Notes under the pieces: generated by a model | Told to the model about the DNA's origin: nothing | Databases searched by the model: none | Seen by the model: only the letters and a program-made list of their open reading frames with translations | Shown: in pieces, positions 25,966 to 48,388 of the stretch | Layout of the letters: every line of letters starts with the position of its first letter | Numbering within the stretch: the stretch's first letter is position 1 | Translations under genes and position numbers: made by a program | Assembly (NCBI RefSeq): GCF_025961475.1 | Contig: NZ_JAOQNS010000009.1 | Location: forward strand, 86,587 to 150,586 | Length of the DNA: 64,000 nucleotides | Source of the DNA: Rhodobium gokarnense | GTDB lineage: Bacteria; Pseudomonadota; Alphaproteobacteria; Rhizobiales; Rhodobiaceae | Direction: 5' to 3'

Positions 25966-26968
25966 CCTGGCTCCTATATATGCGGAACGGACCAATGCCC
26001 CGCGCTTGACGAAACTCGGGACGGAACACCTGTCCGTGTTGTCATCCATTCTCCGGCACGTCGAGCGGGATGATCCGTTCGGCCGGTCGGCGGCCTACTT
26101 CGCCATGACGGGTCGCAAGGGGCTTTGGGCGTATGGCGACGACGAGACCATGATGCTGGTCGCCCGCCATCCCAACCGGGACGATATTCTGTTGCTGTTC
26201 CCGCCGATCGGGCGCGATCCGGCGGGGCTTCTGGCAAGGGCCGTCGACGACCCGCTCTCCCTGCCGTCCGGCAGGCTGGAACTCGCCCGCTTCTCCACCG
26301 AGGACCAGGCACTGGCCTCCCGGCTTGGGACCATGGGCGTAAAAGAACCGCACCGGGAAAAGGTTCTCGACTGGGCCTATCCCGTTCATGTCGTCAGCCC
26401 GAAGCGCATCGTCGAACGGGAGGGCAAACCCTTCGTGTCCTTCCGCGGCCATATCAACCGCGCGATCCGGGACGGATGCCGGGCCGAGCCGATCGATCTT
26501 GCCCGGCACCGGGACGACATTCTCCGCATCATCGACCGATGGGCCGACAGCCGCAGCGACAGCGACTTCAGCCACGACGATCTCACCGGGCCGACGCACT
26601 CGGTTCTCGGCCTCATGGACCGCACCGACCTCGATATCGGCGGAACCATCTCCTGCGATAGCCACGGTGCTCCAATCGGCTTCTGGCTCTGGGAGCAAGT
26701 GGGAAACACGGCCATGTCGCTCGTCCGCGCCTATCTCCGCCACCCCGGCAACGCCGAATACGGCATCCTATCGATGGCCGAGCAACTCTCTAACGCCAAC
26801 ATTCCGGAAATGTGCCTCGGCGGGTCCGAGACCGCCGACCTCGACGCCTTCAAGCGCAAGATGCAGCCCGTCCGCTCCATCGATTTGTCGACCGTCGCTC
26901 TCCCTGATCGTACCCTCGCCGCCGGCATTGGCCGATACCCGGTCCCGCTGTTCCCGGCGAGGGTGTGA
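25958..26968 (+). CDS. DUF2156/GNAT-fold acyltransferase-like protein
   Basis: A 336-residue protein resembling the DUF2156 (phosphatidylglycerol lysyltransferase C-terminal) branch of the GNAT fold. Supporting segments are a first half with HVERDDPFGRSAAYFAM and LLLFPPIG, and a second half with IDLARHRDDILRIIDRW, followed by GAPIGFWLWEQVGNTAMSL and YGILSMAEQL, where an acyl-donor site would lie. There is no membrane domain. The ATG at 25958 overlaps the preceding regulator. Aminoacyl-tRNA or acyl-CoA could be the donor; the substrate is unknown. The assignment rests on pattern recognition and is moderate. Confidence 0.6.
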   Translation: MTSLAPIYAERTNAPRLTKLGTEHLSVLSSILRHVERDDPFGRSAAYFAMTGRKGLWAYGDDETMMLVARHPNRDDILLLFPPIGRDPAGLLARAVDDPLSLPSGRLELARFSTEDQALASRLGTMGVKEPHREKVLDWAYPVHVVSPKRIVEREGKPFVSFRGHINRAIRDGCRAEPIDLARHRDDILRIIDRWADSRSDSDFSHDDLTGPTHSVLGLMDRTDLDIGGTISCDSHGAPIGFWLWEQVGNTAMSLVRAYLRHPGNAEYGILSMAEQLSNANIPEMCLGGSETADLDAFKRKMQPVRSIDLSTVALPDRTLAAGIGRYPVPLFPARV

Positions 26969-27176: not shown

Positions 27177-28715
27177 TTATTCTAACACTTCGAAATCTCC
27201 TTTAATTAAATTAGGCGCATCCAGTAATATTTTAGGATCGAATTTATAATATCCTGTTAAGGTACCGTCATTTGTTGACACAAAATCTTTTTCAAAAACG
27301 GATGCGGACACCAAATTCAACAAACTCCAAACGGGCTCCTTTACAGCAGAAACAGTTCCAGGAGACAAGCCGATTCTCTTTAAAGAATCCACGTCTGAAA
27401 CGTACGCATCTTTCAGGCCGAGCTGTTTTTTCACTTTTCTCGTACTTACTTCCATATTACCGGGAACATGAACCGCAACTAGGCCCATTCTTGTTCGATA
27501 AATAATCGACTTTAGCTCGTTTTCCAATGCTATATTCTTCGCGGTGGCAGCCTGTTGGCATGTTATTACCTCGCGGTCTAAAGTTGTTGAAATCAATTCT
27601 GGTGGTTTATTTCTTTTTTTGGATTCTAGAAAATACACAAGATCCGACTCAGTAACTTTTATTGAAATTTCCCAAAGATTATTAAAGCTTTCCATCAGCC
27701 AGCTTTTATCATGATACTCAACGATTCTTCCGCCTCCAATGTGATTCGGGTCGCGCTTCGATTGCTCAGCAATAAAAATTCGGCCGCTATTTGCGTCTTT
27801 ATTATAAAAAATAACGAAATCCTCTATTCCTGAAATCATTTGTGGCTGTTTTCCAGGAACTCGCCTTAAATGAATGCCATTCCGTAATTGCTTGTTAATT
27901 TCGACGTCAATTTTTAACAGATCCGATTCTCCATGTAAAAATATCCTTCTTATTTCTACATCCCTTCTTGATGCCTCGATATTTTTTTCAAGATAAATTT
28001 GCTGATCCTGTTCAAACTCCCAAATCTCAGAAGAAAGAGATGCAACTGCACAAATCAACGTTTTCTTATCGGCGCTTTCAATTTGCCTGTACAATTCCGC
28101 ATAATAATCATCCGAACTAACAAGAACCTCCCCGACTCTCGCATGTGATAAAATTTCTTTAATCTTATTTAGTATATATTTCTCCGATAAATCGTTTTCA
28201 ATCTTTGATATATTTCCTCGATTGTTATCTATTGTTGAAAATAGCTCGAGAGCGATGCGATCATCTTTGGCCCGTTGCATCATTTGTGCGAACTGTCTCT
28301 TTAAGAAGATATTGCTTCTTGCGATGTTTGACTTGTCAAAATTTAAATAAACTACGCCGCCAAGATCGGTTGGTAGTTTAATGCGATCGGTATCAGTATT
28401 TTTGCATAAAATAATTGCTGTATTCTTCAATCCCAATTTTGCTGAAAATAACCCAATCTCAAGAATTATATTATCTCTAGGCGACATATATTCGTTTTCT
28501 CTGCTAGATGTCATGTCATCAGGCGTGACAATAATAGCAGCTAATTGCACACTTGAAGAAGCGGAAAGTAATTTTTCCAATACGAAATCTCCGGCTTGAA
28601 AATATTCTTCCCAATTTATGGTTTTGGCGCCAATCGAATGGATCAACGAAGAAACCTCATCTACGTAAGAGCGCCCCTCAGACGAAGATGCAATAAAAAA
28701 TGTAATACTTGACAT
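27177..28715 (-). CDS. TIR-like (CAP12/PF10137) protein with PLD-like and YbaK-like regions
   Basis: A 512-residue protein from an AT-rich gene unlike its neighbours. Residues 1-130 match the TIR-like nucleotide-binding family used by CBASS Cap12 and related effectors: FFIASSSEG, NWEEYFQAGDF, LAAIIVTPDD, PRDNIILEIGLF with the candidate catalytic Glu, and LPTDLGGVVYLNF. Such domains degrade NAD+ when activated. Residues about 145-335 resemble a PLD-like sensory fold. Residues about 390-510 (VAVHVPGNMEVSTRKVKKQLG, IGLSPGTVSAV, YYKFDPKILLD) resemble the YbaK/ProRS aminoacyl-tRNA editing fold. The ATG at 28715 is used. No cyclase gene is adjacent, so the trigger is unknown. Confidence 0.72.
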   Translation of the reverse strand: MSSITFFIASSSEGRSYVDEVSSLIHSIGAKTINWEEYFQAGDFVLEKLLSASSSVQLAAIIVTPDDMTSSRENEYMSPRDNIILEIGLFSAKLGLKNTAIILCKNTDTDRIKLPTDLGGVVYLNFDKSNIARSNIFLKRQFAQMMQRAKDDRIALELFSTIDNNRGNISKIENDLSEKYILNKIKEILSHARVGEVLVSSDDYYAELYRQIESADKKTLICAVASLSSEIWEFEQDQQIYLEKNIEASRRDVEIRRIFLHGESDLLKIDVEINKQLRNGIHLRRVPGKQPQMISGIEDFVIFYNKDANSGRIFIAEQSKRDPNHIGGGRIVEYHDKSWLMESFNNLWEISIKVTESDLVYFLESKKRNKPPELISTTLDREVITCQQAATAKNIALENELKSIIYRTRMGLVAVHVPGNMEVSTRKVKKQLGLKDAYVSDVDSLKRIGLSPGTVSAVKEPVWSLLNLVSASVFEKDFVSTNDGTLTGYYKFDPKILLDAPNLIKGDFEVLE

Positions 28716-28999
28716 TACCACTTCCAATTTGAACCGCTTGGTTGCCCGCGATCATTCTCATTCTGTTTTTAATCGTGAATTTTCATTTATTTGGGACCAT
28801 TTGGGAACGACGTATGACCGCTAGCGCGCTTGGTTGTATAGCGGATTTTTCGACAATCGCCAAGCTATGTTCGCTCTTGCGGGCTTTTTCCAATTTTGCT
28901 TTTGACACGGTCAATTAGTTCGTCATGTGGCGCGCTGCAAACGTATTCGTGGAGTTTAGTGACCAGCCACTTTCTAACCTCTTTCTGCGATCGTCCAAC

Positions 29000-31722: not shown

Positions 31723-34700
31723 TTAGGGGTGCCAGCGCTCACCAAGTGCAGCTCGCTCGTCTTGGTCCTGAGCATCCCTGTCATATCCTTCTGCAATTGA
31801 GGTGAGCACCGCCGAAACGCGCGGATGCGAATTCCCGTACCGTGCAGCTAGCCCCCGATACTTCTCCGCCAACACCCGCTCCTGTGCCCCGCCATCGTAG
31901 GGCCCGCGGGTCGTCACTCCTCTTGCGTTGTGGACACCTAAAGTGAAGCGTTCTCGAAGGCCGCCATGTTCGGGACGATCGAGGACGTCAAGCATCACCT
32001 CGGGTAACCAGTCCTCCCACGAACGGTGGCGAGCAAAATGGGCTATCAGCGCGCCAACATGCAGCTCCGCAACCTCTCGCCGGTCAGCATCAGAAGCCAA
32101 CCTCAAGGCTTCCTCGGTCCATCCTAGAAACTGCCCCGCATTGATTTTGCCATCCTTGCTCATGCCAGGAATGGCTTTCCAACCTTCAAGCAAGTGACAG
32201 GCGGTTTCAGCCAAGAATCGGCGGTGCTCCGTTTCCATTTCTTCAAGTTCTGGTTCTGCTGCTCCATCCCGACGCCCGTAGTGCCAAGTCAGAAGCTGAA
32301 TGAATAGAGCTGGGTCCCGCGCGAGTTCCTTATGAAGAGCTAGGGTTCTTTCCCCAGTCCTATGGCCGTAGTTGCACAAGAGTGGCACGAACGGCAATTC
32401 CAGACTGGCAATCCGGTCGTCTGAAAAGTCGGGAGCATTGTCCAAGCACTCGAATACCTCTTCCAATTCGTATGCTCCGGGAGATGGTCCATTGGGTTCC
32501 TCGCCTCGGGAAATAGCTTTGAGGATGCGCTCCCAACGATCCGGCGTGATTTCGTTGCGAAGGAAGATCACGGCGTTAAAAGCTGACCGCGGTCGCTGTG
32601 CCGCTAATAATTTTGTCACTGCGAGTTCAACCTCGTCCGCAGGCGTATCATCCCACAATCTGATTGAGACTGAATTCCAATACGCCTGCTCTACATCCGG
32701 CCCGAGCGCAGCGGCGACTTCCCAGCCATCGGAGCGGCCCGGAAGTAGCTTGGCGAGTCGCTCACGCTGTGTCGGGTCCTCAAGGAGGCCCTCTTTCTCG
32801 AGGGATGCAATGGTGGCTTTTAAGTCACTCAAACCCGCGGTCCAGAAAACTTGTCTCAGAAAGCTATCTGCCGCTTCGGACTGGTTCGCGCGCAAGGCTT
32901 TTCTGGCCCATTGTGTTGCGGTTTCGGGAGGTGAATCTTGGGAGACCAGAGCTTGAGCGACTAATTCAGGACGTTTGACATCCAGCGCGAAAGGCAGGAT
33001 GGCTTCAGGTCCGAGTTCTGCTTCGATTTCAGCAAGCGCTTCGGACCTTTTTTCTTTCACCCGTGCTTCGCGCTCTCGCCAAGAAACGCGTCCATCATCC
33101 TCATCATCGATGAGGCCGCGCCACTCAACATGAGTATTTTCGAAAAGCCAACGATGACGCATTGTTGCTTGAGTTGGTTCGAGCGCATTTTCTATGCGCT
33201 GAAATGCCTCAGCCAAGTCTCGGTTATCGGGCTCATTCTGAGATGCACGGATGACCTCTCTGCGACGCAGGTCATGTCGCAATTCGGCTTTGTCGCCATC
33301 GGATGCAGAGTCACCCCAACGTTCTACCTCGGTGACAAGCCTGCCTAGATCATCGGGGTGAAGCCTCGACGCAACCTCAAGCACCTTGTCGAGTTCGAGC
33401 TTGCTATACGGAACCAAGTCTAAGAGTAGATGGCTAGCCCCAACTGCTGCATCCCAAATACCACTATTCGTTGCTTCTGGAACTTCTTTCTCCAATGCCC
33501 TCCATCGAGGGCGGGAGGTTCTGAAAGCAAGTCCTGGCCCACCACCAGGCAACAGAGAAATGCACACATCAATTGTCGGTGTTCGGTAGGACCCCGAAAG
33601 TTCTCGAAGGACCTTGAGGCGCTCAGTCACGTTCAATGAAGTTGCCGGTAGCCATGCCAAAAACAGGGCCTTTGCGGTGGACGCCGGTGAATTCGTCCAG
33701 TTATCATCCGTGGGAAATCGCTGCAAATCGAACACAATTTTGGCGACGCGAGAAAAGTGCTCGGGATGCCATGCCAGAATTTCCAAGGCCCAAAGCAAAT
33801 TTGTCCGCAAACACTCACCGCCCATGGCGCCGCCAGTGGTACCCATGATTTCTTGAATGGCGGGATCCTTTCCTCTTAGTTCCTCTTCAAGGCAGTCAAG
33901 AAACGCATAAGGAGCAGCCTCCGCAAGTGCACGAAGATGGCCGCGAATGCTCAGCCAACGCTCGTCATCAGCGCCGGCTATCAACTCGCGAACAACTTGG
34001 CTCGCGCGGTAAGCGAGGTCGACTTTGAGACTACTTCCACAAATTTCGGCTCCGTATACTGAGAGAATGCACAATGCGTCGCTGAGCCCGGATAGCAAAG
34101 CCCCTGAATAGCTGCGCGCTTTGCCAAGCACATTTGCCATCCACCATTTGTCCTTGGGGAGGTCTAAGGCAGGATCTCTGTCGCCCAACAATTCTGGAAC
34201 GAGTTGAAAGAAACGATCCAAGTCGTCCCGGTCTATGTAGGGGCCAATTGCAAACAGCGCGTCTAATTGCGAGACGACAACGTCTACGTTCCCATATCTC
34301 GCAATGGGCACGTCATCCAAAGCAAGCAGTTCATCTCTGGCTCGTTCAATCTCGCCATCATCCAGCTCTCCAAGAAGCTGCAGAACCGCCAAATCGTCGA
34401 AACTTTCTCGATCGACCCATGATCCCGCAAGCGCGAACGGCAATAGTCTCTTGGCCAAGGCGCGATCGCGAGCCCAAAGAGGGCGTCGGATTTCCGGATC
34501 AGGCGACAGGTGCCGCCGGAGAATTGGCACCGAATGTCCGGTCTTCAACGCAAGACTCTCAGCGTCATCGCATGACAACCCCATTGCCTGGAGTTCGTCA
34601 CGAAAGACCTCAGATGGGACATGCGAAAGCTGCGATGCTTCCCGAACGTCTTGTCGTCCGCGAGGATAGGCCCGCACGATAGTAAGATTGCGTCTGTCGC

Positions 34701-35514
34701 CAAAATCCGGTTCTTGGCCCTCGGGGAGATCTGCAATTATAATGAGTCGAGCATCGCTCCGAGGAATTGCAATATCGGCTCTCGTCACCACGAGGGTGCG
34801 ATCAAGGAGATCGTCAGCACTTTCTTCGGTGAGTGCCGCGATTACAAACGCTACCGCTTCGCTTCGATCATCTGCTGCAACCGATACCACAGCGTCGCCG
34901 TTACGAAGGTCTCGTAACAACGTTGCCGATTCATCGTGTCGTCGAGTGGCAACCAATCGACGCGAGATCGGCGGATTGGAGGCAGTTGACCATCTTACCC
35001 ACCACTCATTTGGCGTAAGCAGGCCTGGTTGATCAAAACCGAGAAGTTCCCCGATCCAACGAGAAGTAGCAGGTGCTTCGTCAAGCCAGTTTTCTAGATC
35101 TATTGCATCCCACGCCAGAACATTGGCCCAAGAGTTTTCTGCCTGCCGCTCCCTTTGCCATTCATTCTTTGCTGGCCAGCGTCGGGGCGTGACAAAAACG
35201 AAACTCGTGGTTGCTCGTTCTTCCTCAGGTGTTTCATCCGTCCGCTTTCGATAGTCGCTATTCGCCTTCGCGAGCGAGTTCTGATTGCAACCCATCTCCC
35301 AAATGCTTCGCCCCTGAGGGACCCACACTGTCGCTTGTTCAGCTACGGCCTGCCCATCCAATCCAGCTAGATCGACAGCTTCATTTCCCGGAAAGCGTAG
35401 TGATTGCAGGGTTATTGTTGTCTCGCGAACTAGTCGCCGCACCAGAATTGGTAAATTGCTGCGGCATTGGTGGTGATCAGCCCATTGCCTTAGAGCGGTT
35501 TCATTGACCGGCAT
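31723..35514 (-). CDS. Large protein with N-terminal PD-(D/E)XK-like nuclease and helical-repeat body
   Basis: A 1263-residue protein. Residues 40-160 resemble a Mrr-like PD-(D/E)XK nuclease: GLDG with Asp53, then VPQGRSIWEMG with Glu73, KANSDYRKRT, FVFVTPRRWPAK with Lys116, and AWDAIDLENWL. The next segment (residues about 185-300) has the shape of a STAND-type NTPase, but the expected P-loop reads VVSVAADDRSEAVAF without GK[ST], so ATP binding is doubtful. The remaining 900 residues are helical and repeat-like, as in sensor regions of defence proteins. The ATG at 35514 is used. No partner gene is adjacent. A single-gene anti-phage system is the best guess, not proven. Confidence 0.62.
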   Translation of the reverse strand: MPVNETALRQWADHHQCRSNLPILVRRLVRETTITLQSLRFPGNEAVDLAGLDGQAVAEQATVWVPQGRSIWEMGCNQNSLAKANSDYRKRTDETPEEERATTSFVFVTPRRWPAKNEWQRERQAENSWANVLAWDAIDLENWLDEAPATSRWIGELLGFDQPGLLTPNEWWVRWSTASNPPISRRLVATRRHDESATLLRDLRNGDAVVSVAADDRSEAVAFVIAALTEESADDLLDRTLVVTRADIAIPRSDARLIIIADLPEGQEPDFGDRRNLTIVRAYPRGRQDVREASQLSHVPSEVFRDELQAMGLSCDDAESLALKTGHSVPILRRHLSPDPEIRRPLWARDRALAKRLLPFALAGSWVDRESFDDLAVLQLLGELDDGEIERARDELLALDDVPIARYGNVDVVVSQLDALFAIGPYIDRDDLDRFFQLVPELLGDRDPALDLPKDKWWMANVLGKARSYSGALLSGLSDALCILSVYGAEICGSSLKVDLAYRASQVVRELIAGADDERWLSIRGHLRALAEAAPYAFLDCLEEELRGKDPAIQEIMGTTGGAMGGECLRTNLLWALEILAWHPEHFSRVAKIVFDLQRFPTDDNWTNSPASTAKALFLAWLPATSLNVTERLKVLRELSGSYRTPTIDVCISLLPGGGPGLAFRTSRPRWRALEKEVPEATNSGIWDAAVGASHLLLDLVPYSKLELDKVLEVASRLHPDDLGRLVTEVERWGDSASDGDKAELRHDLRRREVIRASQNEPDNRDLAEAFQRIENALEPTQATMRHRWLFENTHVEWRGLIDDEDDGRVSWREREARVKEKRSEALAEIEAELGPEAILPFALDVKRPELVAQALVSQDSPPETATQWARKALRANQSEAADSFLRQVFWTAGLSDLKATIASLEKEGLLEDPTQRERLAKLLPGRSDGWEVAAALGPDVEQAYWNSVSIRLWDDTPADEVELAVTKLLAAQRPRSAFNAVIFLRNEITPDRWERILKAISRGEEPNGPSPGAYELEEVFECLDNAPDFSDDRIASLELPFVPLLCNYGHRTGERTLALHKELARDPALFIQLLTWHYGRRDGAAEPELEEMETEHRRFLAETACHLLEGWKAIPGMSKDGKINAGQFLGWTEEALRLASDADRREVAELHVGALIAHFARHRSWEDWLPEVMLDVLDRPEHGGLRERFTLGVHNARGVTTRGPYDGGAQERVLAEKYRGLAARYGNSHPRVSAVLTSIAEGYDRDAQDQDERAALGERWHP

Positions 35515-35705
35515 CGACGCCCCCAATGCTGCGGAAACTGAAAGTGTTGTTCTGGCTGACGCTACACTTCTGAAGATTCGTCGGAAAGGGCAGGTTTTGG
35601 CAATTTACGGCTGCAACCCGGCGGCTAGTGAGAACTCGCCATTGTCACAACGCGACAGGCGCTGTCGCGGCTCATCAGTCGACAGCCTGCAAATGACCAG
35701 GTTGT

Positions 35706-36083: not shown

Positions 36084-36606
36084 AAATACCCGAAAATGGT
36101 GATGATTTCGGACTGAGATCCACATTCCGGGTGTTGGCTGTCTTGCGGGCTCTATTTCGCTCCGCTCCACCGAACCCGCCCTTCGGCAGGCCTGCGGGCG
36201 GTTTCGGCCCATTCGGGTGACGATCCCGGACAGGAAGAGACGCGGCGGCTGGTCGCCGCCACTCGTCTTTTGCTCGCGCGTTGCACGCGCGTGGACCCCA
36301 TCAGCCAGCTTACACCGCCGCAGGGTCGCCTGATCCAATAGCCTTGGTCCGGGCTGGCCCGCTCCATTCGGCACACGTGCCTCCCGTGTGGCCCGGACCG
36401 CCTTCGGCGCCGCAAGCGGCAAGGCTTTGGGGCGCCCTGCTTGCGGTCATAGCGTCCGTTGCGGTCGCTGCCGTCGGTCCTCCGGCGGCGGCTTTTTTGT
36501 TTCCGGGATTTCGGACGCTCGGCGCTGGCCAGGGGGTCATGCGCGGCGGGTTTTCTCTCCTGAGAGCTTCGCCGGATTTGAAACCCAAACCCCAAGCGAG
36601 GACATC
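36084..36606. other. GC-rich leader region before ardC
   Basis: About 520 bases without a convincing gene, rich in inverted repeats (for example GCCCTTCGGCAGGCCTGCGGGC around 36180, and runs of GGCGGC). It contains a strong plus-strand terminator-like hairpin at 36470-36498. The leader may control transcription of the downstream ardC and ParB-like genes by attenuation. Confidence 0.4.
36470..36498 (+). terminator. Intrinsic terminator or attenuator upstream of ardC
   Basis: An 8-bp stem (GCCGTCGG with CCGGCGGC, one G-T pair) with a TCCT loop is followed by GGC and six T. It stands 108 bases before the ardC start in the same direction, so it would cut transcription short unless an alternative structure forms. 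Confidence 0.6.
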
Positions 36607-37536
36607 ATGGCCAAGAAAGACATCTATCAGGAGGTCACCAGCAAGATCATTGCCGTTCTGGAGACGGTAGACCTTGCCGACTACCAACCGCCCTTTGCGG
36701 CACTGGCAGCTCAAGGACTGCCGCTCAACCCCATCACCGAACATCGATACCAGGGCATCAACATCCCCTCCCTCTGGTTCGATCAGCAGGACAAGGGTTT
36801 TTCGTCCAGCCATTGGGCGACTTTCAACCAGTGGAAGGAGCGCGGCGCGAACGTGCGCAAGGGCGAAAAGGGCAGCCCGATCATTTTCTACAAGACGCTG
36901 GTCAGGCAAGAGTAGACCGACAGCGGCGAAACGGACGAACGCGCCGTTCCCATGCTCAAGACCTATACCGTTTTCAATGCCGATCAGGTTGACGGATACG
37001 ACCGCGCCGACCCCGTCCGCCGCGACGACATCGATCTTGTGACCCGCATCCAAGCGGCGGACCACTTCTGCGCCAGTACCGGAGCCGATATCCGTCATGG
37101 CGGTGGCAAGGCGTTCTACCACCGGGTGGAGGATTTCATTCAAATCCCGGACACCAAGGCCTTTGTGGAGACCAAACAGGCAAGCGCCACGGAGAACTAC
37201 TACGCGACGCTGCTGCACGAGCTGACCCACTGGACGGGAGCGGCGCACCGCCTTGACCGCGACAAGGCAAAAACCGGGGCTGAGCGGGACCAATACGCAT
37301 TCGAGGAACTGGTCGCCGAGCTTGGCGCGGCCTTCCTGTGTTCGGCTATCGGCATCGTGCAGACGCCGCGTGACGACCATGCCCTCTACATCAAGGGCTG
37401 GCTGACCGCGCTCCGGAACGACAAGAAGTATGTCTTCAAGGCGGCAGCACAGGCCGCGAAAGCCGCCGAGTTCCTACACGGCCTGCAAACCGAACCCTGC
37501 AAAGCATCCGAGCCTGCCCCAGAGCGGCCCCGCTAG
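36607..37536 (+). pseudogene. ardC: ArdC-like antirestriction protein gene with an in-frame TAG
   Basis: The reading frame from the ATG at 36607 encodes the ArdC N-terminal ssDNA-binding domain (YQEVTSKIIAVLE, PLNPITEHRYQGINIPSLW, FNQWKERGANVRKGEKGSP). It stops at TAG 36913-36915 and continues in the same frame with the zincin-like C-terminal domain containing HELTHW and AFEELVAELGAAFL. Without the stop the protein would have about 309 residues, normal for ArdC, which protects incoming DNA from restriction. A single-base change explains the stop. A later ATG at 36952 could express only the peptidase-like half. Confidence 0.85.
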
Positions 37537-39332: not shown

Positions 39333-39371
39333 AAAAAATCGCGCCCGGCGCCAGAAGAAGCCGCCGGGCGC
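39333..39371 (-). terminator. Intrinsic terminator of the asparaginase/GatA-like operon
   Basis: A perfect 10-bp stem (GCGCCCGGCG with CGCCGGGCGC) with an 11-base loop; on the minus strand it is followed by GATTTTTTC. It also lies just after the ParB-like gene on the other strand, where no T tract follows. It ends transcription arriving from 39575. Confidence 0.75.
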
Positions 39372-39574: not shown

Positions 39575-41086
39575 TTACACTATTTCGGTCGCCGCCTTTT
39601 CCACGCTAGCAGCTACACGAAGCACATTTTCATCGCCAAACTGTGGACCAATAACCTGAAGTCCCAGCGGCATACCATTTGTACTCGTTTCGACTGGCAG
39701 GCTAATGGCCGGAAGACCTCCCAAATTTATCGGAACAGTATAGACATCCTCGAGATACATCTCGACGGGATTTGTAGAATGCGCTCCAATTGGAAAGGCT
39801 GATGATGGCGCCGTCGGCATAAACATTACGTCTGCATTTTCAAATGCCATACGAAATTCATTTGCCACGATGTTTCGCACCTTTTGCGCTTTCAAATAAT
39901 ACGCATCGTAATAACCAGCGCTCAGAGAGAATGTTCCGAGTAATATTCTCCTTTTAACTTCTCTTCCAAATCCCTCGGCCCGTGTCCTCTCATACAGGTC
40001 ATTAATATCGTTCGGGGCCTTCGCTCTAAAACCGTACCGAACCCCATCATATCTAGCCAGATTCGAAGATGCTTCCGATAGGGCAATAATATAGTACGCC
40101 GGGAGCGCATACTTGAAGCTTGGCATTGACACTTCGACGATCTCGGCACCTATGCGCCGCGCAATTTTCTGAGCTTTGTCCCAAACTTTGTCGGCATCGC
40201 TGGTCGATTCCAGAGCAATCACTTCTTTAGGAAAAGCAATACGAAGCTTCCTTTGTTCTTTTCCCAAAGCCTGTGAAAACGCGTAAGCTCTTCCATCCAC
40301 CGACGTTGTGTCTTTTGGGTCTTCTCCTGCGATTACGTCCAAGAGAATAGCAACGTCTTCAACGCATTTCCCGAAAACGCCGGCTTGATCGAGCGATGAA
40401 CCATAAGCGATAATGCCCCATCGGGAACAAGCACCATATGTCGGCTTCATGCCGACAACGCCACAGAAGCTTGCGGGCTGCCGAATTGAGCCGCCGGTAT
40501 CAGTACCTAGGGCGCCGGCAGCAAGATTTGCTGCGACAGCGGCGGCCGACCCCCCCGACGAGCCTCCTGGAACCAAATTGCCAAATCCGAGCTTCGTGCC
40601 GACCGGATTGATGGTCGGGCCGAAGTAGCTGCTCTCGGTCGACGAGCCCATAGCAAACTCGTCCATGTTCGTCTTGCCGAGAATAACAGCGCCGGCATCG
40701 AGCAGCTTCTGGGTAACCGTAGACTCGTAGGTCGGAACAAAATTCTCCAAAATGCGGGACGCTGCAGTGGTCCTAATCCCTCTCGTGCAGTAATTGTCCT
40801 TTACGGCAATAGGAATTCCATCCAGCGGCTTTCGCTGGTTCTTCGAAATACGCTCATCGGCCTCCTTGGCTTGCTGAGCCGCCGAATCGCGAGCTTCGGT
40901 TATATAAATATTTAGATGTTTATTCTTTGTGATTTCGTCGAAATATTCTGACACCAACTCAGAATTGGAAATCTTTTTTCCTTCAATCAGCGACTTTTGT
41001 TCGCTGATCGACAACGCTGTGGGTGCCAAATTGCCATTTTGGGGAAGTTTCAGAGCGGAAAACACTTTGGAGCGCCTCGTTTTCAA
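39575..41086 (-). CDS. GatA-type amidase (orphan)
   Basis: A 503-residue amidase-signature enzyme closest to GatA, the glutaminase subunit of the Glu-tRNA(Gln)/Asp-tRNA(Asn) amidotransferase GatCAB. The Ser-cisSer-Lys triad is complete: Lys96 in IPIAVKDNY, Ser176 in PGGSSGGSA, Ser200 in GTDTGGSIRQPA. GatA-specific segments follow (SRWGIIAYGSSLDQAG, RTRAEGFGREVKRRILLGTF, YYDAYYLKAQKVR). The start appears to be a TTG at 41086 and could be later. GatB and GatC are absent. It is the last gene of a four-gene operon with two asparaginase-domain proteins, which points to Asn/Gln or tRNA-linked amide chemistry; the actual substrate is unknown. Confidence 0.82.
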   Translation of the reverse strand: MKTRRSKVFSALKLPQNGNLAPTALSISEQKSLIEGKKISNSELVSEYFDEITKNKHLNIYITEARDSAAQQAKEADERISKNQRKPLDGIPIAVKDNYCTRGIRTTAASRILENFVPTYESTVTQKLLDAGAVILGKTNMDEFAMGSSTESSYFGPTINPVGTKLGFGNLVPGGSSGGSAAAVAANLAAGALGTDTGGSIRQPASFCGVVGMKPTYGACSRWGIIAYGSSLDQAGVFGKCVEDVAILLDVIAGEDPKDTTSVDGRAYAFSQALGKEQRKLRIAFPKEVIALESTSDADKVWDKAQKIARRIGAEIVEVSMPSFKYALPAYYIIALSEASSNLARYDGVRYGFRAKAPNDINDLYERTRAEGFGREVKRRILLGTFSLSAGYYDAYYLKAQKVRNIVANEFRMAFENADVMFMPTAPSSAFPIGAHSTNPVEMYLEDVYTVPINLGGLPAISLPVETSTNGMPLGLQVIGPQFGDENVLRVAASVEKAATEIV

Positions 41087-41144
41087 CAGCGGCTATCTGA
41101 TTGCATAAAACCACACATTGGAGCACCTGCTTCTAGCCGAATTC

Positions 41145-42671
41145 TCAGGCGCGCGTAAACATGGACAGTGAGAGTTTTTCAAAGCTGAAAGTGACCCCGG
41201 GGGATGGCACGAAGGTCAGCACCACGTCACTGTCGCCAATGATATTTTTGACCTTTTCCTTCGGCAGCTGCTCGACAACGTTAAAAACGCCGCTTTCGGA
41301 GAGTTCGATACGGTGCAGCCGCCGTGGATGGCTATCCCTTGCAATCAGATCGATTTTAGGGTTTGGGAAGTTCATATAGAGGTCGATCACACCCTGTTCA
41401 GCGCCATCCTCGATCGTCACGTTAACCCCTTTCATCCGCAAAACAGCAGCCGACAAGACGGTCGGATCAAAACGCCGGTCCGGCACGATGAAGTCTGAAT
41501 AGGGCGCGTCGATTGGTTTGTCGGTTTTCTTGAAGTTGAAATCGAACAAGTTTTGCGATTGTTCACCTCGCTGGCTGATTTGCATCTGAAGCTTGACCTG
41601 CTCGCCGATGCGGGTACCCATGGTAACCATCAGCTTTGTCAGCGCTGCCTCAGGAGTCATGTCGAGACCTGAAATAACTCCATTGTCGATGAGGCCGACG
41701 CTTGCGGCATAAAGCCCCATTTCGACGGCGCCCTGAGGGCATTGGGTGATGTTGACCACCACCTTGTCGCCATTGCTGATGCCGTCGCCAAGGGCCGCAA
41801 GGAAATCAGCGTCTTCCGGTGCGTTGCCGGTGCCATATGTGCGAAAGACAACGCCTTTGACCTCATCGAGGTTGAGGATCTGGTTGAGATGGCTTGCCCT
41901 CAGGCCAGGATAGAGCGAAATATCGAGGACATCCGGATTGAGTTCGGTGTGCACCTGAAGGTCGAGCCCGACTGGAGGTGCCGGACGTATCTGGCTTTCG
42001 AAGATGCGGACATGCTCGCCGATCTCGCCAAGGGGTGGGCAGTTTGGCGTATCGAATCCGGTCCAGGCACTGGCGCTCATTTTCCGGGTGCGACAACCGC
42101 GAAGCACCTTATCGGCAAAGACGACGATGACCTCGGGTATCCTCGGCAAATCCGTTGCCTTGAAACCGGCAATTTGCAGGGCATGACCATAGTTCAAATT
42201 GGCATCTGTCCGCGCATTGGTCAGCGGAAGCTGTGAGCCGGTAATAATAACGGGTTTTGCAAGATTTTCCAGCATGAAGCTGAGGGCGGACGCGGTATAG
42301 GCGAGCGTGTCTGTGCCTTGAAGAATAATAAAACCATCATGATCTTCATAATTTTCCTCTATCTTACGCGCAATATTGATCCAATCATCTGGCGTCATTG
42401 AAGACGAGTCAAGCAATCGGCTAAATCGCTCCAGAGTCACATCGACACCGGGAGCTAATTCAGATGCTTCAGGCAAGGCATCTTCTAAATCCTCAAGCTC
42501 TAATGGCTCCAATGGGTGTCCTGGAACTGCACGGTTTGGCGCCATACCGAAGGTGCCGCCCGTATAAAGGACAAATACCTTCGAGATAATGTGATCATTT
42601 TTTACTCCATCAACCGCGTTGGAAATTTTTTCATTTGATGTCTTTGGTGACACACTATTTTTACGAGGCAT
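41145..42671 (-). CDS. Asparaginase with C-terminal extension
   Basis: A 508-residue protein of the bacterial asparaginase/glutaminase family, which hydrolyses Asn to Asp and ammonia. Catalytic residues are all present: Thr40 in YTGGTFG, Ser in DSSSM (89-91), Thr120-Asp121 in QGTDTLAY, and Lys197 in GCRTRKM. Residues 28-385 are the enzyme. About 30 residues at the N-terminus are polar. The last 120 residues (VIDLYMNFPNPKIDL, HRIELSESGVFNVVEQ, VVLTFVPSPG) form an additional, probably beta-rich domain that I do not recognise. No signal peptide, so cytoplasmic. The start shares TAATG with the upstream ATPase-asparaginase gene; the GatA-like gene follows after 58 bases. Confidence 0.85.
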   Translation of the reverse strand: MPRKNSVSPKTSNEKISNAVDGVKNDHIISKVFVLYTGGTFGMAPNRAVPGHPLEPLELEDLEDALPEASELAPGVDVTLERFSRLLDSSSMTPDDWINIARKIEENYEDHDGFIILQGTDTLAYTASALSFMLENLAKPVIITGSQLPLTNARTDANLNYGHALQIAGFKATDLPRIPEVIVVFADKVLRGCRTRKMSASAWTGFDTPNCPPLGEIGEHVRIFESQIRPAPPVGLDLQVHTELNPDVLDISLYPGLRASHLNQILNLDEVKGVVFRTYGTGNAPEDADFLAALGDGISNGDKVVVNITQCPQGAVEMGLYAASVGLIDNGVISGLDMTPEAALTKLMVTMGTRIGEQVKLQMQISQRGEQSQNLFDFNFKKTDKPIDAPYSDFIVPDRRFDPTVLSAAVLRMKGVNVTIEDGAEQGVIDLYMNFPNPKIDLIARDSHPRRLHRIELSESGVFNVVEQLPKEKVKNIIGDSDVVLTFVPSPGVTFSFEKLSLSMFTRA

Positions 42672-44932
42672 TATTTTTCCTCTCCGTTTTCTATTACATC
42701 CAGTTCGCCGACGTAATCAGTTTCCATCATGCGTTTAATCTCGGAGATTTTTCTATCAATCGGCAGGTCACCTTTGTCGACCCGCTCCTGGATCTGCGGC
42801 AGGACCCACATGAATTTGGTGACTGCCGCCGGTGGAGCCATGTTGAGTGCCGCCAGGGCCCCTGCCGCCAGCGGAGGACCGGCCGGTTCATAGTTTGCGG
42901 TCATGCGAGGCTGGATCGGGAATTGGCTTGCCAACATGACTGGGATGTACCTCTCGGTGGCCGCCTTTATGAACGAGATGAGGCTCCAATGCCCTTCCGT
43001 CGGCACGTTGCCGATACCAAGCGTTTCAATAATGATGCCGTCGAGGGTTGGATTTTTCAGCAGTGGCATCAAGAAATCGGGGTTGAGCCCAGGATAAAGG
43101 TCGATCTTAAAGACGCCGCGCGAAAATTTATTACGCAGCTCCATCTCCCGGCGCCGATCGATTTTACGTAAATCTTGCGGCCTGATGTCGATATCATCGG
43201 CAATTGTGCCGAGAGGTTGCCAAGTCGGTGAGTGCATCCCATCAAAGCGGAAATCGTCCTTCTTTTGAACTCGGACACCGCGATGAATTTGGTCGCCTAC
43301 AACCGCGACGACTTCCGGAACATTCCGCGTCGCCACCGCCACGGCGCGCGTCAGGTTAATTCGAGCGTCGCCGTGAATCACATCGGTACCGACCTGTGCG
43401 CCGACAAAGACGACAGGTACGCGCAGCCCCTCGCCTAATGCAAAAGCAATTGCGGAGGCGGTGTGAGGTAGGGTATCGGTCCCGTGCGCAACGACGAATC
43501 CGTCGAATCCGACGTAACGCCGGGCGAATATTGCGTCGGCCAACGTTTCCCAATCATCCGGGTTCATGTCGGAGCTGTCCTTGGCCATCAGGGCGACGGC
43601 CGTGACCTCGGCAATCGAATTGAGTTCGGGAAACTTGCGGAAGAAGCGGGTCAAATCCGGCGGGATGGCGTATTTCCCGTCGGGCTGCAATTCGGTGGAG
43701 ATCATGCCGCCGGTATTGATGATGCAGATACGCTTGCGGGGGGCGTCCAATTTAACGGCAACACCGGGCAGTTGACTGGAAAAAACCTCCTCGCCCAGTT
43801 CTTTCTCTATTGTTTTTGCCCACGCCTTATCGAATACGTTGCGGTAGATGTCCGATTTAATTACGAGGTGTTTTTCATCCTTGGGATCGAACCGGACGAG
43901 CCCACTCGTCAGAAGCGATGCCCGCACTTCTTTACCCAGTGTCTTGACGGCTATTGGACCCTTCAGCGCCTTTTCGTAAGCTGCAATCACGCGAAAAGCG
44001 AGATCCGGTCGCTCAACGATGATGTCTCGCGGGGAGTTGAAATGAGCGCGGCGCCAATCTCCATCCTTGGCGCGGGCTATTCGATCCGACAGGAAAGGGG
44101 CGAGTTCCCCCGTGCTTTGGACATTTTCGCTGCGGGCTTCATCAAAAAGGCAAGCGGTAAGATAGGGCTGCCCGCCGGTAGCCGTAAGAATACCTGCCGC
44201 TATAGACAATCGCTCTTTTTTGTCCGTGGCGGGATAGCCCTCGGCCCACGCAGCAATGACTGCATTATCTTCGGGATCGAAATCACGGAGATCAACCTGT
44301 TTGGCCACTATATTGAACGCTGAGCCTCCCAGAGACTTAAGTAAGTTCTCCGGCGGATTGATGCCGATCAGGACGAAACTTAGGTCCAGTTCGTCGCGCC
44401 GCGCCGCGAGGACGCGAACCGCCTCGAATAGGCTATCGGTAAAATAAGAGTAGAGCTGAACAACATCGATCTCATCGAAGGCGACCACAATCGCCCCTTG
44501 CAGTCGGCTACGCAAGAATTCGGAAAAGAAAGTGGATATCAGATTGGTCGTCGGCATTTCGCCCTGGGCGGCAAGCCATTTTCCAAGATCACCTAAATCC
44601 AGTCGAAACTCACGACACAGCGCCCGAAACAAAGTTTCCGTCCAACCGCGTGCCATACGCGTGCTGTCTTCCGGCAGGCCGAATACTTCGCGGAAGTCAA
44701 TCGTGCCGAAAGTGATTCCTTTATCTTTTAACGTATGTTGGGTCTTGACCCACAAGCTTGTCTTACCGGTCTGGCGTGGCGCCGTGATGACGAAAACATC
44801 CCGCCGTCGTTCAAGCATGCGAGTAAATTCGTGATCGACGCCGCGTTCGACATAGAGCGCTTGGTCGGATCGTACCGGCCCGCCTGAGGATTCATAGATG
44901 ACAGGGGGGCTTTCTGTATTGGGAGAAGGCAC
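42671..44932 (-). CDS. AAA_35-like ATPase fused to an asparaginase domain lacking the catalytic Thr
   Basis: A 753-residue fusion. Residues 25-380 form an AAA_35-like (STAND-related) ATPase with Walker A APRQTGKTS (51-59), Walker B VVAFDEID (149-156), GINPPEN near 190 and GGQPYLT (253-259). Residues 398-730 form an asparaginase-fold domain. The position of the nucleophilic Thr (TGGT in active enzymes) reads TGGM, with Met410, while DSSDM (452-456), HGTDT (Thr485-Asp486) and Lys557/558 are kept. The domain therefore probably binds, but should not efficiently hydrolyse, its ligand. This suggests amino-acid sensing coupled to the ATPase. The gene shares TAATG with the downstream asparaginase and lies 11 bases after the HTH gene. 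Confidence 0.82.
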   Translation of the reverse strand: MPSPNTESPPVIYESSGGPVRSDQALYVERGVDHEFTRMLERRRDVFVITAPRQTGKTSLWVKTQHTLKDKGITFGTIDFREVFGLPEDSTRMARGWTETLFRALCREFRLDLGDLGKWLAAQGEMPTTNLISTFFSEFLRSRLQGAIVVAFDEIDVVQLYSYFTDSLFEAVRVLAARRDELDLSFVLIGINPPENLLKSLGGSAFNIVAKQVDLRDFDPEDNAVIAAWAEGYPATDKKERLSIAAGILTATGGQPYLTACLFDEARSENVQSTGELAPFLSDRIARAKDGDWRRAHFNSPRDIIVERPDLAFRVIAAYEKALKGPIAVKTLGKEVRASLLTSGLVRFDPKDEKHLVIKSDIYRNVFDKAWAKTIEKELGEEVFSSQLPGVAVKLDAPRKRICIINTGGMISTELQPDGKYAIPPDLTRFFRKFPELNSIAEVTAVALMAKDSSDMNPDDWETLADAIFARRYVGFDGFVVAHGTDTLPHTASAIAFALGEGLRVPVVFVGAQVGTDVIHGDARINLTRAVAVATRNVPEVVAVVGDQIHRGVRVQKKDDFRFDGMHSPTWQPLGTIADDIDIRPQDLRKIDRRREMELRNKFSRGVFKIDLYPGLNPDFLMPLLKNPTLDGIIIETLGIGNVPTEGHWSLISFIKAATERYIPVMLASQFPIQPRMTANYEPAGPPLAAGALAALNMAPPAAVTKFMWVLPQIQERVDKGDLPIDRKISEIKRMMETDYVGELDVIENGEEK

Positions 44933-44943
44933 GCGTTACTTTC

Positions 44944-46398
44944 CTAAACTAGTTTGGTTTCAACTCTGATCGCATGCAAATAGAACCGGCAGACGGTCGG
45001 CTCACGCAAATTACCGTCGATGAGCCCGAATTCGCGGAGGCTGCGACCGTATTTCCTCCAGATATCCTCCATCTGCTTCTGGTTTGAGGATTTATCGTTC
45101 AAATTGTCGGTCTGAAGGAGAACCGCTTTAAAAAGGTCCTTCAATACATAGTTTCTGCCGATGAGGAAGCTAATTTCCAGCTTCATTCGTTCCCAGTGGG
45201 ATTCGTAGTCGCTCTCAATCTCAAGCGCCCGTTCTGTCGCCTCTTCGAAATCCTTGCCGCTTCGAATATCCCAGGCATAGAGATGGGTTAGATAGGGATG
45301 CCCATGAAAGAGTTCGTACACGTGCTTCGGATCGTACTTATCCGTTGAAACGTCCAGCAATCGAAACAGTTCGACAACATCTGTCTCGGTCAATTTCTCT
45401 AAGCGCAGTTCGCTGGCCTGTGTCGCGTAGGGAGATGCGTGGGCAGCCGACCAACTTTTGCCGGAGAATGCTGTAACCAAGACGAGCCGCTTGAATGGCG
45501 GCGCGCCGCGGGCGGCGGAGTAGCGCAACTCCGATAACCAATTCACGAGCGCCAACGGGTCGGTGATTGATCCGGCCAGTTTGAACAGCTGGTCGAGCCC
45601 GTCGATGACTACCACAACGCGCGCAAATCTCGTCCAAGCCATCTCCGCCCATCGTCGAAACGCCTCCTTCATGTCGTGGGCATCGCCCTGCAGAAGGTCC
45701 AACGGCATTCCGATCGCCCGATAAACCGCGCCGAAAATCTCCACCTGGGTTAATTTCTCACCGGCAGCAAAGGCAACATCCAAATTGACCATCACAACAC
45801 AGCAGTTTTCCATGTTGCGAGCGTAATCGTAGACCCGGTTGAGGAAAGAGGATGTTCCGCCATTAATCGGCGCGACGACGATACTTGCCGGTGCCGTCCC
45901 GTTTTCCAAGATTGATTGGATCCTGTCGTCGGCGTCACGCTCCAGATAGTTGATCGCAAAAACTGCCAGTGATCCCCGCGGTTCGACAATCACCTTGGTG
46001 GGCGTTTCAGCGTCATTTGTCCCCTCCCCTAAAGCAATGCCGGCCAAAATTTGTTTGAAGGATATGATCTCGCTCGGCTTAATGTCGTTTGCCGCACGGG
46101 CAGTTCGCACTTGCCGCGCCTCGTCAAGATCGGCCAGCGCATCAGCTGCCCCAGCTTTATGGGCTTCGATGCGGGCAATCTGAGCATTGAAAGCCACCAT
46201 GACTTTGGCTTCGTTGTCGGCGGACAAGCCCTGATGCCGTGAGCCAGAAGCGAGAAACTTGCTTATTGCTGCTTTAGAAACGCCAATGTCCGCTGCCAAA
46301 TCAGTTTGTTGTAGGCCGAGTGATCCCTTCATGAAAACCAGCTTTTTGCGATGGTGGGGTGACAGTGTGGTAGATGGGCGATTCATCGGATAACTCAT
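44944..46398 (-). CDS. HTH protein with degenerate AAA_35-like domain
   Basis: A 484-residue protein. Residues 14-60 form an XRE-like helix-turn-helix (LQQTDLAADIGVSKAAISKF). A linker leads into an AAA_35-like domain at about residues 135-480. The P-loop position reads APINGGTSSF (176-185) without the Lys of GK[ST], whereas the Walker-B-like VVVVIDGLDQLF is kept, and HGHPYLTHLYA parallels GGQPYLT of the downstream ATPase. It is probably a non-hydrolysing partner or regulator that pairs with the active ATPase. The start may be ATG 46398 or 46386. It heads the operon and likely binds the palindrome at 46468-46482. Confidence 0.75.
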   Translation of the reverse strand: MSYPMNRPSTTLSPHHRKKLVFMKGSLGLQQTDLAADIGVSKAAISKFLASGSRHQGLSADNEAKVMVAFNAQIARIEAHKAGAADALADLDEARQVRTARAANDIKPSEIISFKQILAGIALGEGTNDAETPTKVIVEPRGSLAVFAINYLERDADDRIQSILENGTAPASIVVAPINGGTSSFLNRVYDYARNMENCCVVMVNLDVAFAAGEKLTQVEIFGAVYRAIGMPLDLLQGDAHDMKEAFRRWAEMAWTRFARVVVVIDGLDQLFKLAGSITDPLALVNWLSELRYSAARGAPPFKRLVLVTAFSGKSWSAAHASPYATQASELRLEKLTETDVVELFRLLDVSTDKYDPKHVYELFHGHPYLTHLYAWDIRSGKDFEEATERALEIESDYESHWERMKLEISFLIGRNYVLKDLFKAVLLQTDNLNDKSSNQKQMEDIWRKYGRSLREFGLIDGNLREPTVCRFYLHAIRVETKLV

Positions 46399-46467: not shown

Positions 46468-46482
46468 TAACGAATTTCGTTA
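46468..46482. promoter_or_regulatory. Candidate operator of the asparaginase/GatA-like operon
   Basis: TAACGAATTTCGTTA is a perfect 15-base palindrome, flanked by GTTAAC on both sides (46466-46471 and 46488-46493). It lies 70 bases before the first gene, which encodes a helix-turn-helix protein, so autoregulation is plausible. Confidence 0.5.
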
Positions 46483-47140: not shown

Positions 47141-48388
47141 TCATCTTGTTGGTCGGCGCCGATCTGCAAATGCCGGATGGTCACGCAATTGACCGTAAGC
47201 GCGGATATCGTCGCGGATTTCCCGCCGCCTCGATGCGAATTCGCGGGCAAGTTCGGCCCGCATATCGACAAGCCGCCGCCGTTCGGCGAGCTGTGCGAAG
47301 ATCGAAGCGTCAAGTTCTTCCCGGTCCCGTAGCGCGCAGGCAGCCGCCTCCCGCTCGTTGCGATGCTGAATGCGCTTTGTCTCGCCGCGAGCCCAATCCC
47401 ACAGACCCTTCAAGCCGGAACGAAAGCGAGATTGGCGGATGCGGGCTTCCTGCCATTTGCGGTGTTCGATGGTCTCGATCAGCTTTTGTCGTGTGGCGCG
47501 GTGGCGGTGAACCATCGCGCGGCGCTGTTTGTGCAATTGGCTGTTGTACGGCTGAAGATCGCTTAGCAACTGGCCCTTATGCCGCTGCATAGCCTCCTGC
47601 ATTTCCTCGGCGATCTTTGCCTTTGTGGCCGCCACATCCGGCAGGTCGTCTTCATCACTCAGCCGCTGGCGGACAGCCTTCGTCCTGACGCCAATCCATT
47701 TTGGGAGCGCGCAGACCTCACCATGCATGTCGAGGGCAACGAAGCTTCTGCGGTCGCCTTTGGCCAATCGATAGCCGCGCTCCTCCAGCGCATGGATGAA
47801 GGACGTCTTCGCGTCAGATATCGCCCAGGCATCCTGCAGGGCCGCTTTGATGGCACGAGGGTCTTTTCCCTGCCGCTTCGCCTGTTGCCATTCGGCGAGC
47901 GAAAAGTTGCGCGGATCGCCCGCGTCGCTTTGGACAAGCCCACGTGGCATCGTCCAGCCGTGTTCGAGAAAAAGCTCCCGCGCCATCCCCATGAGAGTCT
48001 TCTTGGTATAGGAGAGCTGCACGGCCTTCATGTCGTCGGTCTTGATGCGGCTCCACACCGCATGGGCATGACGGCGCCCTTCTTTCTCATGAAAGACAAT
48101 CGCGCGTGGCTGGCCGTCGAGGCCTAATTCGTTTTCGATCCGCGCGATTGCCGCTTCGAAGTCCGCCGTCTCGACGACCGCCGAGGACGGCGGATTGAGG
48201 GACAGTGAAAACAGATACTGCTTGCACCGCGTGCCACGACTGACCGCGTAGGCTTCGTTCAGCGCGCCGCGCAAATCCTGCGCGACGAAACCGCGAATTT
48301 CGTGAACCTGAACATGGTCGTTCTCCTCCTTCAGGAGATGAAGAGCGAGTTGCTTCCCGCCGCCGCGCTGATTGCCGACGAGGATCAT
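47141..48388 (-). CDS. Relaxase/mobilization nuclease
   Basis: A 415-residue relaxase that should nick oriT and lead DNA into the recipient. The N-terminal domain starts ILVGNQRGGGKQLALHLL. It has VHEIRGFVAQDLRGAL, KQYLFSLSLNPP, and the three-His metal motif in EKEGRRHAHAVWSRI (about residues 104-118), followed by a C-terminal basic coiled region rich in Arg and Lys. This pattern is frequent on rhizobial plasmids and integrative elements. The start overlaps mobC in an ATGA junction. The coupling ATPase of the element lies 34 kb away. Confidence 0.85.
   Translation of the reverse strand: MILVGNQRGGGKQLALHLLKEENDHVQVHEIRGFVAQDLRGALNEAYAVSRGTRCKQYLFSLSLNPPSSAVVETADFEAAIARIENELGLDGQPRAIVFHEKEGRRHAHAVWSRIKTDDMKAVQLSYTKKTLMGMARELFLEHGWTMPRGLVQSDAGDPRNFSLAEWQQAKRQGKDPRAIKAALQDAWAISDAKTSFIHALEERGYRLAKGDRRSFVALDMHGEVCALPKWIGVRTKAVRQRLSDEDDLPDVAATKAKIAEEMQEAMQRHKGQLLSDLQPYNSQLHKQRRAMVHRHRATRQKLIETIEHRKWQEARIRQSRFRSGLKGLWDWARGETKRIQHRNEREAAACALRDREELDASIFAQLAERRRLVDMRAELAREFASRRREIRDDIRAYGQLRDHPAFADRRRPTR

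Follow-up and report, generated by a model that had tools for sequence, protein, structure and literature searches.

NTPases of the STAND/AAA_35 type with fused or adjacent effectors are known from Avs, TIR-STAND and other systems. Here we analyze a four-gene operon of Rhodobium gokarnense that may be a mobile, apparently undescribed relative of such NTPase-plus-enzyme conflict systems; it lies in a stretch of 64,000 nucleotides (contig NZ_JAOQNS010000009.1, positions 86,587 to 150,586; hereafter the window) and encodes an AAA_35-type ATPase (gene 1), an AAA_35-asparaginase fusion (gene 2), a second asparaginase-fold protein (gene 3) and a GatA amidase (gene 4). As in the described systems, a P-loop NTPase is joined to an enzymatic domain: AAA_35 is present in genes 1 and 2, and a TIR-AAA protein occupies the position of gene 1 in a related operon of the Aminicenantes. 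The differences are that the enzymatic domain is an asparaginase, that a degraded NTPase is paired with an intact one, and that gene 2 has no match in PADLOC. Our results support a coherent, mobile and apparently undescribed system in which STAND-type ATPases are paired with asparaginase-fold proteins and a tRNA-related partner.

Gene 3 is similar to the type I asparaginase AnsA in that it keeps the catalytic residues and scores 252.5 with TIGR00519; however, it stays below the cut-off of this model (260.5) and has an extra C-terminal part, and gene 2 (198.9, also below the cut-off) is fused to AAA_35 and has lost the nucleophile. With respect to the archaeal GatD of GatDE, 2d6f is the best-scoring solved chain for gene 2 (2.3e-39, with other asparaginases nearly equal), yet the TIGR02153 scores of genes 2 and 3 (188.2 and 152.2) are far below the cut-off of 324. 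The window GatA (Pfam Amidase, 508.7 bits) passes the TIGR00132 equivalog model for the GatA of GatCAB (603.9 versus a cut-off of 481.1), but differs from it in that neither gatB nor gatC is found in the 64-kb window (tblastn), that the genome has a second copy, and that the gene is linked to asparaginases. A feature shared with Thoeris is a ThsB-like TIR, present in gene 1 of the Aminicenantes operon and near a GatA-asparaginase pair (locus L020); however, Pfam finds no TIR in the four window operon genes, and ThsA was not searched for separately. The original prediction had not recognised this combination as a described system, and this assessment holds, as PADLOC gave no convincing match and no described equivalent was found in the PMC full-text literature, a source that leaves most subscription papers outside its reach. 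The main texts of PMC7159879 and PMC8195603 make no mention of asparaginase, and PMC8987985, PMC2701414 and PMC12013270 have the word in the reference list only.

Organization of the operon

The tightly spaced minus-strand operon proposed originally was confirmed: between 46398 and 39575 we find four intact open reading frames (ORFs) of 484, 753, 508 and 503 amino acids (aa), with intergenic spacings of 11, -1 (a shared TAATG) and 58 bases, the largest gap preceding GatA. The GC content of the operon is 50-55%, compared to 62% in the first 20 kb of the window. Its features are:

44944..46398, minus strand: gene 1, 484 aa; possible XRE-type helix-turn-helix (HTH) N-terminus and AAA_35-type NTPase with a degraded P-loop
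42671..44932, minus strand: gene 2, 753 aa; AAA_35 NTPase and, fused to it, an asparaginase domain (type I/GatD-like; approximately residues 398-745)
41145..42671, minus strand: gene 3, 508 aa; type I-like asparaginase and a C-terminal part without Pfam match
39575..41086, minus strand: gene 4, GatA, 503 aa; start codon uncertain
39333..39371, minus strand: intrinsic-terminator-like hairpin and T-run, about 200 bases beyond the GatA stop
46468..46482, no strand assigned: short palindrome (7+1+7), candidate operator upstream of gene 1

The start of GatA is uncertain as the TTG at 41086 is followed by further GTG and TTG codons downstream. The terminator postulated behind the operon is present, with a perfect stem of 10 base pairs (bp; 39341-39350/39362-39371) and the T-run next to it on the minus strand; a terminator scan did not report this hairpin (39341-39371), whose loop of 11 bases compares with a scan maximum of 8. 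For the palindromic operator candidate the outcome was mixed: the palindrome exists, but 5.7% of base shuffles of the same stretch contain one with 7-bp arms and a loop of 0-6, so that it is weak evidence for an operator and was rejected as a strong one.

Both window ATPases exceed the Pfam gathering score for AAA_35 (cut-off 27), gene 1 with 46.3 and gene 2 with 53.6 bits; HTH_3 in gene 1 (20.8) is below its cut-off of 23. The Asparaginase and Asparaginase_C domains score 154.9 and 57.0 bits in gene 2, and 184.1 and 83.7 bits in gene 3. Walker A is intact in gene 2 only (APRQTGKTS), gene 1 being devoid of GK[ST]. Across nine copies of the operon the P-loop of gene 2 is always intact (9/9); that of gene 1 has Lys in six and Arg in two of the nine, and neither in the window copy. 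For the asparaginases we used catalytic-site positions and roles which we assume to be those of E. coli AnsA. At these positions the Thr-Asp pair and the Lys are kept in all 21 aligned enzymes of the gene-2 and gene-3 groups, window copies included, and the first Thr in 20 of 21 (gene-2 group 10/11, gene-3 group 10/10). The single exception is window gene 2, in which the nucleophile Thr is replaced by Met410 (codon ATG, 43703-43705). In the window GatA, K96, S177 and S200, which we take to be the amidase-signature Lys and Ser residues, are kept, being invariant in a four-row GatA alignment (A7).

Recurrence of the ATPase-asparaginase set

Conserved co-occurrence of the four families across genomes had been suggested as a check. 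Genes 2 and 3 indeed adjoin in nine genomes besides that of the window, namely three of a Magnetococcales class (G445, G456, G420), one alphaproteobacterium (G961), and members of the Acidobacteria, Bacteroidetes and Aminicenantes. Gene 1 follows the pattern by position, its similarity being weak: an ATPase-type gene precedes genes 2 and 3 wherever the contig covers that stretch. For GatA the check succeeded in part, since it stands beside the same asparaginase lineages in two further places, but the usual fourth gene is a different one (see below). In G445, G456, G420 and G961 an ATPase-type gene 1 comes first, the AAA-asparaginase fusion second and an asparaginase with additional parts third, and the series closes with a gene for a 450-459-aa protein. 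Even in distant groups, neighbours within the operon are mostly less than 30 bases apart or overlap (by at most 122 bases, with ORF starts set mechanically). In a tree of 32 asparaginases, from which L035 gene 3 and L045 gene 2 were left out as cut or interrupted, the gene-2 and gene-3 types form separate groups (support 100/100, counted against each other).

The distribution of the set is patchy. With gene 2 as query, one of three genomes in the family of the window and one of 397 in its order (at E 1e-40, the window's own) gave a match; in its class there were two of 385 (at E 1e-60, the window's own and G961). In the phylum, 6 of 398 genomes matched at E 1e-36, four of them over the full length (the window's, G445, G456, G420) and two with a plain asparaginase. 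The fused gene 2 is present in 3/48 genomes of the class holding G445, G456 and G420, in three different families. No place covering 80% of the query was found for gene 2 in plasmids or phages or for gene 3 in plasmids, and gene 1 had no match in plasmids; a single-protein scan of the genome_contigs collection returned 15 stretches, none of which was confirmed.

A YbaK-racemase fusion as the usual fourth gene

In all nine further operon genomes, the gene after gene 3 encodes not GatA but a protein, here called YR, in which YbaK-type aminoacyl-tRNA editing and Asp/Glu-racemase-like domains are fused (it is cut by the contig end in one genome, and in another located on a contig that begins inside gene 3). 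GatA as the usual fourth gene was therefore rejected. The YR of L021 scores 28.9 bits with Pfam tRNA_edit (cut-off 25.5) and a sub-threshold 20.4 bits with the Asp/Glu racemase family (cut-off 31), and its second half is matched by solved Asp/Glu racemases. An alignment built from four operon copies, searched against the genome_contigs collection (84,980 species), yielded 16 YR loci; in 11 of these (9/14 if the two seed genomes are set aside) the gene immediately upstream, in the same orientation, encodes an asparaginase. The fused gene 2 is also present at six of these 11 loci:

L031, Magnetococcales, seed: YR, asparaginase and fused gene 2
L036, Blastocatellia: YR, asparaginase and fused gene 2
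L040, Bacteroidetes: YR, asparaginase and fused gene 2
L042, Solibacteraceae: YR, asparaginase and fused gene 2
L044, alphaproteobacterium, seed: YR, asparaginase and fused gene 2
L045, Acidobacteriota: YR, asparaginase and fused gene 2, the latter broken by a single TGA and truncated at the start of the contig

In the Aminicenantes genome, the L035 contig begins inside gene 3 and carries YR, and genes 1 and 2 with the beginning of gene 3 are on a second contig; the two were left unjoined. A second arrangement (L032, L033, L034, L041) consists of a cyclase-like gene, an asparaginase of another lineage and YR; the cyclase-like gene of L032, the one that was scanned, carries an FGE-sulfatase domain. 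At L032 the gene after YR has a TIR match of 27.8 bits, just under the cut-off of 28, and a relative of it at L034 is split over two ORFs. The start of locus L038 coincides with the end of its contig; at L046, a YbaK-like ORF of 196 aa, no asparaginase was found.

Among 15 aligned YR proteins the Lys of the YbaK half is kept in all, the motif ACNTT is unchanged in 12 (L035, L036 and L042 differ), and all 15 racemase domains have Leu at what we presume, as for the roles of the other YR residues, to be the position of the second Cys of Asp racemases. We found no YR match in the genome of the window (a search without positive control), none in phages, 25 stretches but no confirmed one in viral contigs, and one plasmid record matching the racemase half only. 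Two further places are of note. In Winogradskya consettensis (L037, 7899-9263) YR stands directly before a gene that by eye resembles a non-ribosomal peptide synthetase (NRPS) condensation gene, and no asparaginase was found. A plasmid of Ensifer adhaerens (L067, 7971-11094) carries consecutive genes for an Asp/Glu racemase, an asparaginase and an aspartate ammonia-lyase, which we regard as a metabolic relative of this pairing.

GatA beside asparaginases of the same lineages

GatA had been called an orphan, and within the 64-kb window it is one; the 5.1-Mb genome, in which the window lies on contig C9, has a second GatA on contig C4 (52% identical) with gatC beside it, and gatB on C12. A GatA next to asparaginases of the same lineages recurs at L065 and L020, again without gatB or gatC at the locus. 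L065, a single phage-like IMG/VR contig, has a set of genes for GatA, an ATPase of the MinD/ParA type and two asparaginases, interspersed with small ORFs and lying between terminase and portal genes. At L020, in G445 (which also has a YR-type operon), GatA overlaps the asparaginase gene and gatB is located elsewhere in the genome. In the asparaginase tree the enzyme of L020 and the first of the two from L065 fall within the gene-2 group (fork 100/100), and window gene 3 has the second L065 asparaginase as its sister (100/99).

The GatAs themselves do not group in this way. In a small tree of 13 rows, with the L069 fragment left out, the window copy stands on a long branch beside alphaproteobacterial GatAs (97/96), L020 with two housekeeping GatAs of the Magnetococcales class (98/97), and L065 with Limosilactobacillus and a copy from the candidate phyla radiation (93/92). 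A single origin of the three was rejected (p-AU 4.4e-73), as was a clade of the window and L065 copies (p-AU 0.014). Since the three GatAs are not one clade, the GatA-asparaginase pairing seems to have arisen more than once. By tblastn neither GatA nor YR was found at the asparaginase loci L022, L023, L066, L100 and L101, of which L100 and L101 are viral contigs; L066 and L099 are the same locus.

Possible function and alternative explanations

We tentatively favour, with a probability of about 0.35, a mobile conflict or stress-response module under the control of STAND ATPases that would act on amide donors and tRNA amidation. GatCAB makes Asn-tRNA from Asp-tRNA, with Gln or Asn as amide donor. 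No asparaginyl-tRNA synthetase (AsnRS) above the cut-off of the model was found in the genome of the window, in the alphaproteobacterium or in the three Magnetococcales-class genomes; in these hosts Asn-tRNA should therefore come from Asp-tRNA by GatCAB, which is why we prefer the module. Genes 1 and 2 would form a STAND-type AAA_35 NTPase pair, one P-loop degraded and one intact, holding the asparaginase-fold subunits, one fused in gene 2 and one separate (gene 3). A trigger, be it infection, mobile DNA or an amino acid signal, would be sensed by the pair, which may then release or assemble an amidohydrolase that hydrolyses the GatCAB amide donors Asn and/or Gln. The fourth gene would act on the accumulating misacylated Asp-tRNA(Asn) or Glu-tRNA(Gln), in the YR form by deacylation and, where it is GatA, by providing or diverting amidation in concert with the chromosomal GatB and GatC. 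The module is compatible with either kind of fourth gene, its function being inferred from sequence. In its favour are the gene order and tight spacing shared by distant groups, the co-occurrence of YR with an asparaginase and often gene 2, the separate gene-2 and gene-3 groups in the tree, the different lineages of the linked GatAs, the patchy spread, the recurring TIR genes and the mobile surroundings. As two unrelated tRNA-related partners adjoin the same asparaginases, with GatAs of different lineages, tRNA amidation offers a concrete, testable target. That removal of Asn would bring growth to a halt, as originally suggested, is doubtful for this host: where no AsnRS exceeds the cut-off and the fused asparaginase lacks its catalytic Thr, simple starvation of translation for Asn is a poor fit.

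A number of observations weigh against this module. Gly occupies the position of Ser60 in 6 of 11 gene-2-group enzymes, so that their substrate may differ, and because of the lost nucleophile at most one of the two window asparaginases can be ordinary. Gene 1 shows little conservation (the window copy is 17-20% identical to three relatives); at L021 both its HTH_3 and AAA_35 matches are under the Pfam cut-offs, and the gene in its position at L040 does not match the gene-1 profile. The gene-3 group separates from ordinary AnsA rows with a support of only 85/85, the GatA sample is small, and the L020 pair may be a relocated housekeeping gene, as it holds the only GatA match of G445 at E 1e-80. 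YR occurs without asparaginase at L037, L039 and L043. With asnS above the cut-off in 5/10 operon genomes and AsnRS lacking by this measure in the other five, no single tRNA pathway fits all hosts. PADLOC 2.0.0 gave no match for genes 2-4 up to E 0.01, and for gene 1 only DrmMII at E 0.0098. Finally, several loci have D-amino-acid-transaminase-like and lysA-like genes at their flanks, which is more in keeping with metabolism.

A defence role may be supposed for the operon; if the module does have one, STAND NTPases would be connected with the chemistry of amide amino acids and aminoacyl-tRNA. A more specific form of this reading, which we regard as rather unlikely, is a new class of mobile immune systems that attacks the amide-nitrogen supply and tRNA-dependent amidation: a STAND NTPase pair would switch on an asparaginase/glutaminase, and the exchangeable fourth gene would deal with the misacylated tRNAs. 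Such a system would be an amino acid counterpart of NAD+-depleting defence.

The metabolic genes flanking some loci keep alive another reading, which we regard as rather unlikely, namely a regulated cassette for amide or D-amino-acid metabolism. In such a cassette the ATPases would be transcriptional or allosteric regulators, the asparaginases would feed Asp, the racemase would make D-Asp or D-Glu, a flanking D-amino-acid transaminase and a lysA-like decarboxylase would extend the path, and GatA would be a plain amidase. The three Magnetococcales-class operons have aminotransferase class IV genes as neighbours, and the Bacteroidetes operon a fragment of such a gene (106 aa); the L021 aminotransferase resembles D-amino-acid transaminases (247.2 bits versus a cut-off of 277.45), and lysA-like decarboxylases, below the cut-off of their model, lie beside L040 and L041. 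The racemase half of YR is closest to Asp/Glu and cysteate racemases, and the Ensifer plasmid row and the NRPS-like neighbour in Winogradskya point in the same direction. However, a fusion of NTPase and enzyme, TIR domains and a patchy spread are unusual for metabolism, none of the window ORFs of at least 100 aa beyond 20 kb grouped with these transaminase or decarboxylase genes, and Leu stands at the presumed second-Cys position in 15/15 racemase domains. Even if metabolic, this would be an ATPase-fused asparaginase cassette for which no description was found.

It is unlikely, too, that GatA has come by chance to lie behind a cassette of three asparaginase and ATPase genes, or that the operon is decaying after loss of nucleophile, P-loop and YR. 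Of the copies compared, the nucleophile is lost in that of the window only (10/11 keep it), window gene 1 alone has neither Lys nor Arg in the P-loop, the genome gave no YR match in the search without positive control, and GatA is preceded by the largest gap of the operon. On the other hand, all four ORFs are open and full length, GatA is above its equivalog cut-off with its amidase residues kept, and the pairing occurs twice elsewhere with GatAs of other lineages, though not at five other asparaginase loci.

Surroundings of the operon

Relaxase, ParB-like, ArdC-type and resolvase genes surround the operon, and farther left follow a coupling-protein gene and a recombinase; from these genes we read the surroundings as a probable mobile element. 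The two features singled out are:

47141..48388, minus strand: relaxase (Pfam Relaxase 48.9 bits, cut-off 24.6)
27177..28727, minus strand: TIR-YbaK protein, 516 aa; Cap12/PycTIR-type TIR and YbaK-type editing domain, a possible partner in the island

The TIR-YbaK gene has a GC content of 37% (57% for the window). Its product matches Pfam CAP12-PCTIR_TIR (100.4 bits) and tRNA_edit (31.8, cut-off 25.5) as well as a PADLOC TIR effector (3.9e-25); compared with the YbaK half of YR, hhalign gives a probability of 77%, but hmmsearch -0.1 bits. Among 15 of 16 plasmid matches listed, 14 cover the TIR part, one the YbaK part and none both. TIR domains recur in or near the operon loci. A signalling role, in which TIR and amino acid enzymes would make or destroy an amino acid-linked nucleotide signal (that of Thoeris is histidine-ADP-ribose) and the asparaginase, GatA and YbaK folds would process its amino acid part, could draw on these domains, on the fusion of YbaK to TIR in the window island and on the ThsB-like TIR and SLOG-family gene near, though outside, the L020 GatA pair, but with a TIR inside the operon in only one of ten operon genomes (Aminicenantes) we consider it very improbable.

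Ten hand-picked neighbour and partner proteins were compared with PADLOC without background control, and at E 0.001 seven of them match and three do not; the matches comprise two at L036 (one HTH-type only), a weak one at L042, a type II methyltransferase at L040 and three TIR proteins. Some further ORFs of the window may be mentioned. The N-terminal and metallopeptidase halves of ArdC lie on two plus-strand ORFs (36388-36915 and 36952-37536), as if an antirestriction gene had been split. On the minus strand, an ORF of 1267 aa (31723-35526) has no Pfam match and a weak PADLOC match to PD-Lambda-4_A (E 0.00033), and one of 3255 aa (52615-62382) overlaps one of 518 aa (62357-63913), with no Pfam or PADLOC match at E 0.01. 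On the plus strand, an ORF with a sub-threshold HTH (25291-25965) overlaps a gene of the LPG_synthase_C type (25883-26968), a domain that uses aminoacyl-tRNA in lysyltransferases.

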